This document shows, piece after piece, positions 1 to 27,769 of a stretch of DNA of 42,038 bases. The position numbers were made by a program, and so were the translations under genes. Below the pieces are notes generated by a model, which was not told the origin of the DNA, made no database searches, and saw only the letters and a list, made by a program, of their open reading frames with translations. Positions within the stretch are counted from its first letter, which is position 1; each line of letters begins with the position of its first letter. This stretch comes from an uncultured bacterium (lineage in GTDB: Bacteria > Planctomycetota > Phycisphaerae > Phycisphaerales > UBA1924): the NCBI GenBank assembly GCA_913062615.1, contig CAJXXI010000002.1, positions 1 to 42,038 on the forward strand. Reading direction: 5' to 3'.

Positions 1-1404
1 GCCCTTGATGAAAAACAGGAACTCCTCGGTCCCGCCTGCCAGCGCCCCAAACTCGCCGGCGCCGAAAAACGTATAGCCGAGTCCATCCACCGCATCGATC
101 AAACCGAGTCCACCATCCCGCCGATCAAACTCGATGCCGCCCTCAAATGGGCACAGGAAAAAGCAGACCTTCAGTTTGCCCCCCAACAAACCGCCGCCCT
201 CAGTCAGGCATTGCAATCGAAATTCAGCATCATAACCGGAGGCCCCGGCACCGGCAAAACCACCCTCGCCGAGGTCATCGCCAAAGCTACCTCCCGCAGA
301 TTCGTCCGCGAAAACGCCGCATCCGTCGGCGTGAAGCGCATCCGAGAAATCATCGACGACGCCTACCGCATCCTGGGCGACTCGGGCAAACGCACCATCC
401 TCTTCCTCGACGAGATCCACCGCTTTTCCAAATCCCAGCAAGATGTCCTGCTCGCCGATGTCGAACGCGGATTGATCACCCTCATCGGCGCGACCACCGA
501 AAACCCACTCTTCGCGGTCAACGCCGCTCTGATATCACGCTCAACCCTCTTCCGCCTCGAGTCACTCTCCGAAGACGAAACCGTCGAGCTCATCGATAAC
601 GCGATCAATAACCCGCTGGCATTCCCCAATATACACATCACCATCACCGACGACGCCAAACGCGTCTGGGCAATCAAATCCGAAGGCGACGCGAGAAGAG
701 CACTCACCGCGCTCGAAGTCGCGGTTCGCTCAACCCCTGGTTCGTCGATCCAAATCGACAAACAACTCGCCCAAGACTCCATCCAACAGAAGCTCGCCAA
801 CTACGGCTCAGACGGTCACTACGACGCCGCCAGCGCCATGATCAAATCAATCCGAGGCTCCGACCCCGACGCCGCGATCTACTGGATCGCAAGAATGCTC
901 GACGCCGGCGAAGATCCACGCTTTATCTGTAGACGCTTAGCAATCCTCGCAAGTGAAGACATCGGCAATGCTGATCCACGGGCCGTGGTGATTGCGCAGT
1001 CCTGCTGGGACCTCACCGAACGCATCGGCATGCCCGAAGCAAGAATCACCATCGCCCAGTGCGCGACCTATCTGGCGTGTTGTCCAAAATCCAACGCAGC
1101 CTACGCCGCGATCAACGAAGCCCTCGACGATGTCCGCAACAGCCGCGTCCTGCCCGTCCCGATGCACCTACGCGATTCAAACACCTCGCCCCAAGCACAT
1201 TCCGATGGCTCCGGAAAACGCGTACGCGATCTCGAAACCGAAAAATACGAATATTCCCACAACGCCGAATCCCAACTCACCGGCCAAGACTACCTCGGCG
1301 TCGACAAACACTACTACCACCCCAAAGACATCGGCGCCGAACGCATCCTCAAGCAGCACCTCGACGAGGCTCGTCGGCTCAAATCGAAACGAAATAACCC
1401 CTAA
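1..1404 (+). CDS. RecD2-like N-terminal segment fused in frame to RarA/MgsA-type AAA+ ATPase (5' end outside window)
   Basis: Frame 1 is open from base 1 to the stop at 1404. Residues from 1-237 (ALDEKQELLGPACQRPKLAGAEKRIAESIHRI...IPPIKLDAALKWAQEKADLQFAPQQTAALSQALQSKFSIIT) resemble the RecD2 region before motif I. After GGPGTGKTT (238-264) the protein reads as RarA: LAEVIAKATSRRFVRENAASVGVKRIREIIDDA, ILFLDEIHRFSKSQQDVLLADVE, LIGATTENP, EGDARRALTALE, RRLAILASEDIGNADP. The ORF track begins at the internal TTG at 211 only because no earlier start is visible. Confidence 0.8.
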   Translation, partial: ALDEKQELLGPACQRPKLAGAEKRIAESIHRIDQTESTIPPIKLDAALKWAQEKADLQFAPQQTAALSQALQSKFSIITGGPGTGKTTLAEVIAKATSRRFVRENAASVGVKRIREIIDDAYRILGDSGKRTILFLDEIHRFSKSQQDVLLADVERGLITLIGATTENPLFAVNAALISRSTLFRLESLSEDETVELIDNAINNPLAFPNIHITITDDAKRVWAIKSEGDARRALTALEVAVRSTPGSSIQIDKQLAQDSIQQKLANYGSDGHYDAASAMIKSIRGSDPDAAIYWIARMLDAGEDPRFICRRLAILASEDIGNADPRAVVIAQSCWDLTERIGMPEARITIAQCATYLACCPKSNAAYAAINEALDDVRNSRVLPVPMHLRDSNTSPQAHSDGSGKRVRDLETEKYEYSHNAESQLTGQDYLGVDKHYYHPKDIGAERILKQHLDEARRLKSKRNNP

Positions 1405-1708: not shown

Positions 1709-3709
1709 ATGAAAACCAGCCTCATCTGTTTACTCGCTATATTCTCGGCTTCCTCTTTGACCCTGGCTGACGGAGTTACCTGCCGATCCGGGGATGTACT
1801 TGGTTCATTTGAGACCCAAGGCATATCGCGGGCTGTTGAAGTTGTGGGCACGACAGCCTTTGTACTCGACTCATCCAACCTCCATGTGGTTGATATCTCA
1901 GACCCCCTTGCTCCATCAGTCATTGGCTCGACGGCAATGTCAGGCGTCAATATTGATATGAAGCGGATTGACTCAACCGTGTACATTGCAAATCGCAATA
2001 CGGGTTTGGTGATTGTCGATGTCAGCATCTTGAATAATCCAACAATAATCGGTTTGCTCGACAACCTTGGTCGAACAAAGTTTATTGATGTTGTCGGCAC
2101 GACTGCCTATTTGGCCAATGACACTTCGGAGTTACACATCATTGATGTGTCTACCCCATCGACGCCTGCACTGCTTGGGACCTATACCAGCACCGGAACA
2201 AACCGCGAGGTGGCTGTGGTTGGTTCGAGGGCGTATCTCGCGAGCACGGATATCCACATCATCGATGTCAGCGATCCTGCCCAGCCTGTGTTCTTGGGTT
2301 TGTATGACACCGTTGGGACTGCACTCGATATCTCTGTCATTGACACAACCGCATTCATTGCTGAAAGCTTTGAGGGGCTGTCCATTGTTGACATGAGCGA
2401 TGCGTCATCACCCTCGCTGATCAGCAGATACCCGACCGATGGTTATATCAGTGAACTTTCTGCGGACGGTTCGACTGTATACGCCATCGAGAGCACCAGT
2501 GGCTTGTCAGCTATTGATGTTTCGGATCTCACTTCACCGAGTTTCATCGGGAGTATAAGTCTGCCTACATCGTTTGATTTTTTATCTGTAGGCAATGGAC
2601 TAGCCGCACTGGCAGGTGACTTCAACGGCACAATGCAACTGGTTGATGTTTCCAATCTCGACATCCACGCTCCCGTCGCAAGTTTGATTCCAACCTTTGA
2701 TATGGCGATCAATGTCGCAACAGCAGGCAACTATGCCTATGTCACGGATCGCCAAACGGGACTGCTTGTGTACGATATCACTACACCACTTACACCGATC
2801 CTGATCAGTACGACAAAGATAGATGGATCCGCCTATGACATTGCTGTACAAGACTCTATCGCGTATGTCTGTGGCGGCACTTCAGGGATTCACATCTTTG
2901 ATATCAGCACACCAAGCGCACCATTTTTGATCGGACATAACGACAACTCTGATTTCTCAGAGATTGTTATTGAAGGCCAATATCTCTATGCATTAGGTTT
3001 GCCAAAGATCGGCGTGTTCGATGTCTCTGATCCGACCAATCCGCTGCTCCAAGACACCCATCAGGTAGATGGATACACATCCGAAATGATTGTTCGTGAC
3101 TCGATCATCTACCTCGCCAGCGGCTACACAACGCTGGATATCTTTGACGCCACTGATCCCAAATCCATACAAAGACTCCATAAGGTGAGCATCAACTCTT
3201 ATCCAGAGTTTACCTCAGGGATTGCACTGATGGACAACACCCTCTTTATCAGCACAGATAGCTCTCGCATGCGTGTGTTTGATGTCAGCACCCCGGCGTC
3301 GCCATCCCTTCTTGCGACCTACCCACTCAACTTCAATACTGGAGAAATGGCTGTGGACGGGACTGACCTGATCATGATTGCATCTGGCCTTCAAGTGTAC
3401 GACGCTTCAAACCCGCTGGATTTACAATGGAAGGGCTCGCAACCACTCTTTGGAAGCAAACTCACGCTCGGCGGCTCGCATGCATTTGTCGCATCTGGCA
3501 CCCGAGGGTTCTATGTTGTAGATATCAGCGACTGCGACGACTGCACCGCCGACTTCACCGGCGACGGGACACTAGACTTCTTCGATGTCTCTGCATTCCT
3601 CGGCGCATTCGCTGCACAAGATCCCATCGCCGATTTCAACGACGACGGGGCATGGAACTACTTTGATGTCTCCGCATTCCTCGCAGCTTTCAGTGCCGGG
3701 TGTCCGTAA
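1709..3709 (+). CDS. Secreted LVIVD-repeat (beta-propeller-like) protein with C-terminal GC-type dockerin-like domain
   Basis: ATG at 1709 after AGAGAAAAGG; signal peptide MKTSLICLLAIFSASSLTLA; many repeats of the type L.(I/V)VD(V/I)S(D/T)P..P.L(I/L)G; C-terminus CTADFTGDGTLDFFDVSAFLGAFAAQDPIADFNDDGAWNYFDVSAFLAAFSAGCP. Confidence 0.8.
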   Translation: MKTSLICLLAIFSASSLTLADGVTCRSGDVLGSFETQGISRAVEVVGTTAFVLDSSNLHVVDISDPLAPSVIGSTAMSGVNIDMKRIDSTVYIANRNTGLVIVDVSILNNPTIIGLLDNLGRTKFIDVVGTTAYLANDTSELHIIDVSTPSTPALLGTYTSTGTNREVAVVGSRAYLASTDIHIIDVSDPAQPVFLGLYDTVGTALDISVIDTTAFIAESFEGLSIVDMSDASSPSLISRYPTDGYISELSADGSTVYAIESTSGLSAIDVSDLTSPSFIGSISLPTSFDFLSVGNGLAALAGDFNGTMQLVDVSNLDIHAPVASLIPTFDMAINVATAGNYAYVTDRQTGLLVYDITTPLTPILISTTKIDGSAYDIAVQDSIAYVCGGTSGIHIFDISTPSAPFLIGHNDNSDFSEIVIEGQYLYALGLPKIGVFDVSDPTNPLLQDTHQVDGYTSEMIVRDSIIYLASGYTTLDIFDATDPKSIQRLHKVSINSYPEFTSGIALMDNTLFISTDSSRMRVFDVSTPASPSLLATYPLNFNTGEMAVDGTDLIMIASGLQVYDASNPLDLQWKGSQPLFGSKLTLGGSHAFVASGTRGFYVVDISDCDDCTADFTGDGTLDFFDVSAFLGAFAAQDPIADFNDDGAWNYFDVSAFLAAFSAGCP

Positions 3710-3714
3710 TCAAA

Positions 3715-14273: not shown

Positions 14274-14332
14274 AATGCGTGTATGGTATCATTATGACTC
14301 GTACCCAATGCCTTCCATTTTACGGAGTCTGC

Positions 14333-16201
14333 ATGCTGCATACATTTGATCGATTCTGCCGAGTGTTTATTTTTCTGAGCCTCGTCTGTGCAACTGCGAT
14401 GTTCACCAATACAGCGAATGCCAACTCGGCCCCGGACGCATTCACAAAGGATGTCGAGTCGCACATTATCGATATCTTTGATCGAGTAACCGATCAAGAC
14501 TCACTCGAACTCGCCAGCAGCGAGATCAACCAACTCGCAGACTATGTGTCTGCACATGCTGGCAATCGCCAGTTTGATGCGATTGTCCACGCCGAGGCCG
14601 CCCGAGAGATTACGAAACTACTCCTCGGAGCATCGAGTTCGAACAAGAGGTTCGATCTCTCTAATACGATCGATCAACTTTTTGAACATCAAGAGTTCAT
14701 GATCGAACTTGGCATTCAGATTTCTGATGAAGACCAAGCCGAGCATGTCGCTCGAATTATCAATGAACTGATGAAGAAACGATCGTCGCAGGTGAAGGCG
14801 TACCCGCGGGTCGCTGCGGCAATTGCACTTGTGCACGACCGTGCACAGAGCACGCCATATTCCGTTCGAATCAATGAAAACCATCCTGCTGCCGCCCGCC
14901 CCCTTGAGATCTTTGACTTCTATGTCAATCACGCGAGCACGATGGCCATCCCCCTCAATAAACTGCCCACGGCCTTGCTCGTTTATGTCGTGGATGTCTC
15001 TGAATCAATTGAAGACCTTGAATGGGCACATCGAACATATACACGAAATCAGAAAGTCGGCGAACGATTCTTTGAAATCGAATATGACTACGACCATTAC
15101 CGAAAGGGATCGCCCAAGAAAGTCACCGCGGCAGGAAACTACGGCCTCCAGAATATCAAGCAGCATGGTGGCGTGTGCGCCGACCAAGCGTACTTCGCGA
15201 TGAGTGTCGCCAAAGCAAACGGAATTCCATCTGGGTACATCGTTGCCAAGGGCGCGAATGTATCGCACGCTTGGGTTGGGTTCTTAGAGCTGAAGGGCCG
15301 GCAAGCGGCTTGGAACTTTGATGCCGGGCGATATCCTGAATATCAAAAACTCCGAGGCAATGTCACCAATCCCCAAACCGGCGAACGCATCAGCGACGGG
15401 CGGCTCGGCGTTCTTGGGATCGCCTCTGCATCATCCAACACCAGCGTGCTCCACAGCATGGCGATCGCTAAAGCGGTTATGCGGATGCTCAATCGAGACT
15501 GGAACCCAGATACTGATTTCGATATCGCCCGCCGAGGCAATCTGAAACGCCCACGAACAGACTCGGAAAAGGATTGCCTTGCATTACTCAGGTCTGCCTT
15601 GACCAAATGCGCAGGCTCGCCGACTGCTTGGGCGAATGTCATCCACATGTCATACATGCGTGATCTTACCGAAGCTCAGAAAAGTACTTGGTCAAAGGCG
15701 GTCATGCAAATGTGTGGCAAGCGGCACCAAGATTTCTCGTACGACTTCCTCGTGGATCTCATCAACACGGTCGAAGATCCCAAGGTGCAGCATGAGATGT
15801 GGGAATGGGCATTCAATCAGTTCCGAACTCGTCCTGATCTTGCCGCCGGTGTGCGACTGATGCAGGGTCGGCTCTGGCAAAGCAAAGACAATCCGGAGTA
15901 CGCATGGCTCGCGTACAACGATGTGATCACCAAGTTCATCAATGAAGGCCCAATGGTCAATCAAGCCCTGAGTTCTATGGGTAAACTCTTGGCACGATCA
16001 GGAAAACGAGATGAGTATCTGCCAGTTCTGCAAGAGGCCGCCCGCCAAGTTGATCAGCCCGACCGCATGGGAAGCCAGTTCGCTCGACAATCGAACTACT
16101 ACAAAATCAACTGGCGTCTTGTCAAAGAACTTGAGTATCACAATCGAATGAACGAAGCCAGCCATATCCGCAAAATGATCCGCATGCCCGCAAACGATTG
16201 A
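14333..16201 (+). CDS. Secreted transglutaminase-like domain protein
   Basis: N-terminal signal (FIFLSLVCATAMFTNTANA); cysteine motif GGVCADQAYFAMSVAKANGIPSGYI; histidine motif SHAWVGF; WNFDAGRYPEY. ATG at 14333 preceded by acggag. Confidence 0.7.
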   Translation: MLHTFDRFCRVFIFLSLVCATAMFTNTANANSAPDAFTKDVESHIIDIFDRVTDQDSLELASSEINQLADYVSAHAGNRQFDAIVHAEAAREITKLLLGASSSNKRFDLSNTIDQLFEHQEFMIELGIQISDEDQAEHVARIINELMKKRSSQVKAYPRVAAAIALVHDRAQSTPYSVRINENHPAAARPLEIFDFYVNHASTMAIPLNKLPTALLVYVVDVSESIEDLEWAHRTYTRNQKVGERFFEIEYDYDHYRKGSPKKVTAAGNYGLQNIKQHGGVCADQAYFAMSVAKANGIPSGYIVAKGANVSHAWVGFLELKGRQAAWNFDAGRYPEYQKLRGNVTNPQTGERISDGRLGVLGIASASSNTSVLHSMAIAKAVMRMLNRDWNPDTDFDIARRGNLKRPRTDSEKDCLALLRSALTKCAGSPTAWANVIHMSYMRDLTEAQKSTWSKAVMQMCGKRHQDFSYDFLVDLINTVEDPKVQHEMWEWAFNQFRTRPDLAAGVRLMQGRLWQSKDNPEYAWLAYNDVITKFINEGPMVNQALSSMGKLLARSGKRDEYLPVLQEAARQVDQPDRMGSQFARQSNYYKINWRLVKELEYHNRMNEASHIRKMIRMPAND

Positions 16202-25219: not shown

Positions 25220-25451
25220 GAGCTGCCTCCCCATTGCGAGTTGAGTCTGTATCTGAACTGGATTTGATCGAAACGCGAGGCGTAAAAATCACATCGTCAT
25301 CAAGCGGGATATTCGCCGCCGCTTCGATCTCTTGCTTCGACTTGCTCATCACATTCCACACCACCGCAATAAAAGCAGCAAGGAAAAAGATCAACGCAAT
25401 ACTCGGATAGATCGACAGATCAAGATAGGAAACGATTTCGGTCATTCTCAT
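25212..25451 (-). CDS. ccoQ: cbb3 oxidase small subunit CcoQ-like
   Basis: Single-TM small protein between ccoNO and ccoP, overlapping both by a few bases: SIALIFFLAAFIAVVWNVMSKSK. Confidence 0.75.
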   Translation of the reverse strand: MRMTEIVSYLDLSIYPSIALIFFLAAFIAVVWNVMSKSKQEIEAAANIPLDDDVIFTPRVSIKSSSDTDSTRNGEAAHV

Positions 25452-27769
25452 GGCGACACCTCCTCTTGAGTTTCCTCAACCAGAGGCGGAGTCTTCGAGA
25501 TATCAGTCCCCATCCGCTGGAGATACGCGATCAGAGCAACGACCTTCTTGTCATATGTCTCTTCATACGATGGTCCACCTTGTGCTTCGAGCTCCATCGC
25601 GATCTCAAGGGCTTGCCCCTGGGCGTGCTCGACGGTCTTGCCTTCGAGAAGCAACTCACCATACGGAACTCCCAACAGAGCCATCGAATCGACCCGACCA
25701 CGGATCTCATCGAAGTTTATCGTGTTCGACAACAGCCAAGGATAACGAGGCATGATCGAGTTCTCGGAGATATCCGCAGGGTTCTTGAAGTGACGGTAAT
25801 GCCACAGATGCGTACGCAATCCGCCCTCACGAGCAAGGTCTGGACCGATTCGGCGAGAACCCCACTGGAACGGATGATCATAAACAAACTCACCCGGCTT
25901 GGAGTATTCGCCGTACCGCATGGTCTCCCACAAGAACGGACGGATCATCTGCGAGTGACAGTTGTAGCAACCTTCAGCGACATAAATATCTCGACCCGCA
26001 AGCTCCAAAGGCGTGTACGGCGTCACAGTTGTAATCGTAGGAATATTCGACGAAACCATAAACATCGGGACCGCTTCGACAATGCCACCGATCGCTACCG
26101 CGACGAGCACCCAGAGGGTGAACTTCACAGGCTTGCGTTCGAGCGAACGATGCCAGTTGCCCTGGAGGAACTTATCGCCCGCGTGTCCCACGCCTGTGTT
26201 CGCACCCAGGCGAGACTTGGCCGAAGGATCTGCAGGATCGTTCTTGCTCAGTGCTGGTGCATAGTGCACGACATCTTCATACTTCTCAGGACGAGCCTTC
26301 CAAGTCATGAACATGTTGTAGAGACCGAGGATTGCACCGGTGAGGTACAACAACCCGCCGACAACGCGAATCCAGTACATCGGAATCAACACGGTCACTG
26401 TTTCGATAAAGTCGGGATAGGACAAACGCCCGTTGACATCAAACGCACGCCACATCAACCCTTGGGTGATGCCGGCAGCATAGATGGCGAGCACATAGAG
26501 CACCATACCGATCGTGCCGATCCAGAAGTGAGCAGCACAGAGTTTCTTGGAGTAGAGCTTCGTCTGGAAGAGCCGAGGCATCATCCAGTAGAGCATGCCA
26601 AAGGTCATAAACCCGTTCCAACCAAGCACACCCGCATGGACATGTGCGATCGTCCAGTCGGTGTAATGCGAGAGCGAGTTGACCGATTTGATCGACAACA
26701 ACGGCCCCTCAAAGGTCGACATCCCATAAAAGGTAATGCCCACAATGTAGAACTTGAGAATCGGATCAGAAGCCACGCGATGCCAAGCACCACGCAAAGT
26801 CATCAAACCATTAATCATCCCGCCCCACGATGGCATCCACAGCATGACCGAGAAGACCATACCAACCGTCGATGCCCATTCTGGCAACGCGGTGTAGTGC
26901 AAATGGTGAGGGCCGGCCCAGATGTAGATAAACACCAACGACCAGAAGTGAATAATCGAAAGCTTGTACGAGAACACAGGGCGCTCGGCAGCTTTAGGAA
27001 GGAAGTAGTACATCAAACCAAGGAATGGCGTCGTCAAGAAGAACGCCACCGCGTTATGACCATACCACCACTGCATCAGCGCGTCTTGCACACCCGCATA
27101 GATTGGATACGACTTGAGCGCGAGTTCAGCCGATGGCATCTCGCCATACTGAACAAGGTAGACCAAACCCGCGGGCACCCACAGGTTGTTAAAGACATGA
27201 AGCATCGTCACCGTGACGATCGTGGCGATATAGAACCACAACGCGACATAGATATGGCGTTCGCGACGATGAATCAGTGTCATCATGAAGTTGCCGCCAA
27301 AGAACACCAGCCAGACTACAGCGATCATGAGATCGATTGGCCATTCGAGTTCGGCGTACTCTTTACCCTGGGTGATTCCAAATGGTAAAGTAAGCACCGC
27401 AGAGAGAATGATCAGCTGCCAACCATAAAAATGGAGCTTAGAGAGCAGGTCGGAATACATTCTCGCTTTACATAGCCGTTGGGTCGAGTAGTAGATCGCA
27501 GCAAAGATGCCATTGCCCGCAAAGGCGAAGATCGCAGCGTTGGTATGCAACGGACGCAAACGCCCAAAGCTCAAGAACGAGATACCAAAGCTCGAATCCG
27601 GGTAGGCAAGCTCGATCGCGATGATCACACCCACGAGCATCGCAACGACGCCCCAGATGATGGTTGCCCACGCAAACATACGAACAATTTGATCGTCGTA
27701 GACAAATGCTTCAAGCCCATCCTTGTCAGGATGCTGATGCGCCTTCGTTTTTTTTGCTTTATCCGCCAC
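25448..27769 (-). CDS. ccoNO: Fused cbb3 oxidase subunits I and II (CcoNO)
   Basis: CcoN part: LRPLHTNAAIFAFAGNGIFAAIYY, WWYGHNAVAFFLTTPFLGLMYYFLPK, GPHHLHYTALPEW, HAGVLGWNGFMTFGMLYWMMPRLF. CcoO part: YVAEGCYNCHSQMIRPF, GPDLAREGG. One uninterrupted 773-aa frame. Confidence 0.95.
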   Translation of the reverse strand: MADKAKKTKAHQHPDKDGLEAFVYDDQIVRMFAWATIIWGVVAMLVGVIIAIELAYPDSSFGISFLSFGRLRPLHTNAAIFAFAGNGIFAAIYYSTQRLCKARMYSDLLSKLHFYGWQLIILSAVLTLPFGITQGKEYAELEWPIDLMIAVVWLVFFGGNFMMTLIHRRERHIYVALWFYIATIVTVTMLHVFNNLWVPAGLVYLVQYGEMPSAELALKSYPIYAGVQDALMQWWYGHNAVAFFLTTPFLGLMYYFLPKAAERPVFSYKLSIIHFWSLVFIYIWAGPHHLHYTALPEWASTVGMVFSVMLWMPSWGGMINGLMTLRGAWHRVASDPILKFYIVGITFYGMSTFEGPLLSIKSVNSLSHYTDWTIAHVHAGVLGWNGFMTFGMLYWMMPRLFQTKLYSKKLCAAHFWIGTIGMVLYVLAIYAAGITQGLMWRAFDVNGRLSYPDFIETVTVLIPMYWIRVVGGLLYLTGAILGLYNMFMTWKARPEKYEDVVHYAPALSKNDPADPSAKSRLGANTGVGHAGDKFLQGNWHRSLERKPVKFTLWVLVAVAIGGIVEAVPMFMVSSNIPTITTVTPYTPLELAGRDIYVAEGCYNCHSQMIRPFLWETMRYGEYSKPGEFVYDHPFQWGSRRIGPDLAREGGLRTHLWHYRHFKNPADISENSIMPRYPWLLSNTINFDEIRGRVDSMALLGVPYGELLLEGKTVEHAQGQALEIAMELEAQGGPSYEETYDKKVVALIAYLQRMGTDISKTPPLVEETQEEVSP

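Follow-up and report, generated by a model that had tools for sequence, protein, structure and literature searches.

A RecD2-RarA reading frame at a contig start, very probably an assembly chimera joined at a common Walker A loop

The window analysed here (42,038 nucleotides from an uncultured member of the Phycisphaerales) opens with a reading frame in which a RecD2-like segment runs into RarA. Sequence comparisons suggest, with a probability of about 97%, that this RecD2-RarA fusion is an assembly chimera and not a real feature of the organism. They firmly indicate that the organism's rarA is split between two contigs, and that the lead-in in front of the RarA part has foreign affinities.

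A single frame on the plus strand is open from base 1 to base 1404, encodes 467 residues, and runs off the contig start. The first-pass annotation had described it as RecD2 followed by RarA with the join at the Walker A loop, and the profile searches bear out this description. The NCBIfam RecD2 model (TIGR01448) matches residues 10 to 98 with its positions 267 to 356 of 713 (E 4.2e-19), and RarA-type models take in everything from residue 76/77 onward. The Pfam domains AAA (PF00004), AAA_assoc_2 (PF16193), and MgsA_C (PF12002; E 3.5e-59, in the RarA part) all score above cut-off in the 467-residue product. Residues 1 to 80 have no meaningful match to normal same-genus RarA, which agrees with the RecD2 reading of the N-terminal residues. 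The switch from RecD2 to RarA at Walker A is far above chance expectation.

The part encoded by bases 244 to 1404 (plus strand) is assigned, by DNA and amino acid identity to a relative and by its Pfam matches, to native rarA (mgsA), the replication-associated recombination AAA+ ATPase. It comprises everything from Walker A up to the usual end of RarA, including the MgsA C-terminal domain, whereas the first approximately 61 residues of RarA are absent from the window contig (C2). The motifs of the full RecD2 helicase past Walker A and its C-terminal UvrD-like part are not found on C2. The draft genome comprises 207 contigs (84% complete, 0.35% contamination). The first base of the window is also the first base of C2, so the RecD2-like part amounts to some 243 bases at the edge of a contig and is not the known start of a gene.

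A search of the genome bin with the RarA N-terminus of a relative leads to bases 1 to 120 of another contig (C132), on the minus strand and at the very contig edge. The terminal peptide of C132, MTDLWQANRESAVDRIAPLAARIRPTRLDQIVGQTHLLGP, corresponds to RarA residues 1 to 40 and is 92.5% identical to the close relative L072, and residues 62 to 444 of the L072 RarA match C2 with 91% amino acid identity. Beyond the rarA start, C132 aligns with the DNA preceding rarA in L072, L073, L076, L078, and others. Both parts match the same relative and the upstream flank is syntenic, so a single ordinary rarA is divided between C132 and C2, lacking 21 codons (about 63 bases) at the break. The ordinary RarA N-terminus with its VGQxHLL lead-in is thus present in the same genome, on C132 and not on C2. 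The C2 copy is the only RarA body in the bin.

The segment at bases 1 to 243 (plus strand) carries the RecD2 residues just before motif I. A scan of a collection of genome contigs found it in Opitutia (Verrucomicrobiota), the best match being the Opitutia bacterium UBA7350 with 94% protein identity over residues 1 to 78, and two more metagenome-assembled genomes show 90% and 85% protein identity. At the DNA level, bases 1 to 237 are identical to UBA7350 recD2 at 216 of 237 positions; this recD2, at 91% identity the closest one compared, is not that of the actual donor strain. Past the P-loop the match to UBA7350 drops to background (22 of 60 positions). The UBA7350 recD2 frame, intact at 776 codons, goes on there to the expected PTGRAAQR motif. 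Everything past helicase motif I of this SF1B helicase is absent from the window, leaving what appears to be a 243-base fragment from another organism. The UBA7350 genome has its RarA pieces on contigs other than that of recD2. The window organism itself is not one of the Opitutia, because its RarA side and C132 match genus relatives at approximately 70 to 85% DNA identity, whereas the RarA pieces of UBA7350-type genomes show only 43 to 61% protein identity. Within the genome bin, no RecD2 pieces other than bases 1 to 243 were found. A phage or plasmid source for the RecD2 piece was rejected, with no match in either the phage or the plasmid collection. Base composition is uninformative as a test of foreign origin and does not tell the two parts apart, the GC content being 0.58 on each side of the joint.

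The comparison with relatives places the boundary at the same point. RarA was searched in 61 genomes (the window organism's own and 60 relatives), of which 58 gave a match. Alignments covering the N-terminal half start at residues 75 to 77 in nearly all cases and at 70 to 74 in a few, which places their starts at the P-loop or slightly ahead of it, and the RecD2 lead-in was found in none of the approximately 55 relatives with RarA. For a close genus relative, the DNA alignment begins at base 244 and shows 84.6% identity from there onward. In all 14 same-genus rarA loci, homology begins at window base 243/244 or later, never before. Those same-genus RarA N-termini that were read directly are ordinary (M-DLW...AARxRP...VGQxHLL...LLRRMIDADALTSVILHGPPGTGKTT). 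None of the 20 other genus genomes searched contains the 81-residue RecD2 segment, nor did a full-length RecD2 turn up in the genus. Relatives with the same architecture, which the first-pass annotation had proposed to look for, did not turn up: no RarA alignment extends upstream of residues 70 to 77. Two genus relatives carry additional, short copies of the RarA C-terminal part (G008:C69:3171-3383 (L072) and G002:C33:55522-55872; 68% identical) about 2 to 4 kb downstream of the full rarA, which are perhaps duplication remnants.

The longest exact string common to window bases 201 to 1404 and UBA7350 recD2 (L081) is CCCGGCACCGGCAAAACCAC, 20 bases at positions 244 to 263 (plus strand), within Walker A and at the putative point of misjoining. 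The rarA genes of the genus relatives L005 and L007 have 21 and 20 bases, respectively, in common with UBA7350 recD2. The suggestion that P-loop microhomology served as the splice site is therefore substantiated by 20 exact bases present in both parents, and each parent is separately identifiable, as a UBA7350-like recD2 and as the rarA on C132 and C2. The frame is kept across the joint because both P-loops encode PGTGKTT by the same codons in the same frame.

As an assembly error, the arrangement probably arose as follows. The ordinary rarA of the organism is broken in the assembly, with codons 1 to 40 ending C132, about 63 bases lost, and the sequence from the P-loop onward placed on C2. The assembler would then have extended the end of C2 into recD2 sequence from an Opitutia-like verrucomicrobium, a separate organism that presumably occurred in the same sample. 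The bridge would be the at least 20 bases common to both Walker A loops, and the extension would have stopped about 240 bases later. Short-read assemblers start from k-mers near 20 bases in length, and a k-mer bridge through the 20-base string at low coverage is plausible. Interspecies chimeric contig ends occur in metagenome assemblies. The present case resembles them in that the join lies at a contig end, in a short exact repeat common to conserved genes, and the true continuation ends another contig; its one notable trait is that the frame survives, because the string encodes the same P-loop.

A genuine fusion would require that a verrucomicrobial recD2 part, acquired by horizontal transfer, had recombined with rarA at the P-loop to give a RecD2-RarA protein. 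The frame open through the joint and the intact P-loop would fit such an event, but the P-loop codons common to both parents account for the kept frame, so that an uninterrupted frame does not count as evidence for a real fusion. The native RarA N-terminus lying exactly at the end of C132 beside its syntenic upstream neighbour, the single RarA body in the bin, the lack of the architecture in any relative, and the mere 240 or so bases of the fragment at a contig end all speak against this origin, which we regard as very improbable. We see just as little reason to expect a real recombinant at the strain level, in which an acquired recD2 fragment would be fused to rarA at the P-loop and the displaced rarA N-terminus would lie elsewhere in the genome.

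Still harder to credit is the origin that the first-pass annotation had offered for a genuine fusion, namely a deletion that joined recD2 to an adjacent rarA within this lineage. Nothing beyond the common P-loop favours it, and it was rejected since this RecD2 is missing from all 20 genus relatives searched; the nearest relatives of the fragment are Opitutia. Between the two options of that annotation, a genuine fusion is thus disfavoured, whereas an assembly chimera is the one strongly supported by the native N-terminus on C132 and by the affinity of the recD2 part to Opitutia. An assembly chimera implies no new biology and provides a clean case of a conserved P-loop bridging the genomes of two unrelated organisms in a metagenome assembly. 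A chimera with a kept frame mimics a credible fusion protein, and annotation would read it simply as RarA. For fusion claims at contig ends, the missing native part should be sought at another contig end.

Further genes of the window show features of their own. Just downstream of rarA, bases 1709 to 3706 (plus strand) encode a 666-residue protein with LVIVD/beta-propeller repeats; the 3' end of its gene (approximately 3540 to 3710) matches several sites near rarA in relatives, resembling a common C-terminal tag. An open reading frame of 640 residues at 14279 to 16201 (plus strand), located after an H+-pyrophosphatase gene, has no Pfam match at E 1e-4. On the minus strand, one open reading frame at 25448 to 27769 combines COX1 (CcoN-like) and FixO/CcoO domains, which makes it a fused cbb3-type oxidase subunit. 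Other bacteria are known to have CcoNO fusions as well.
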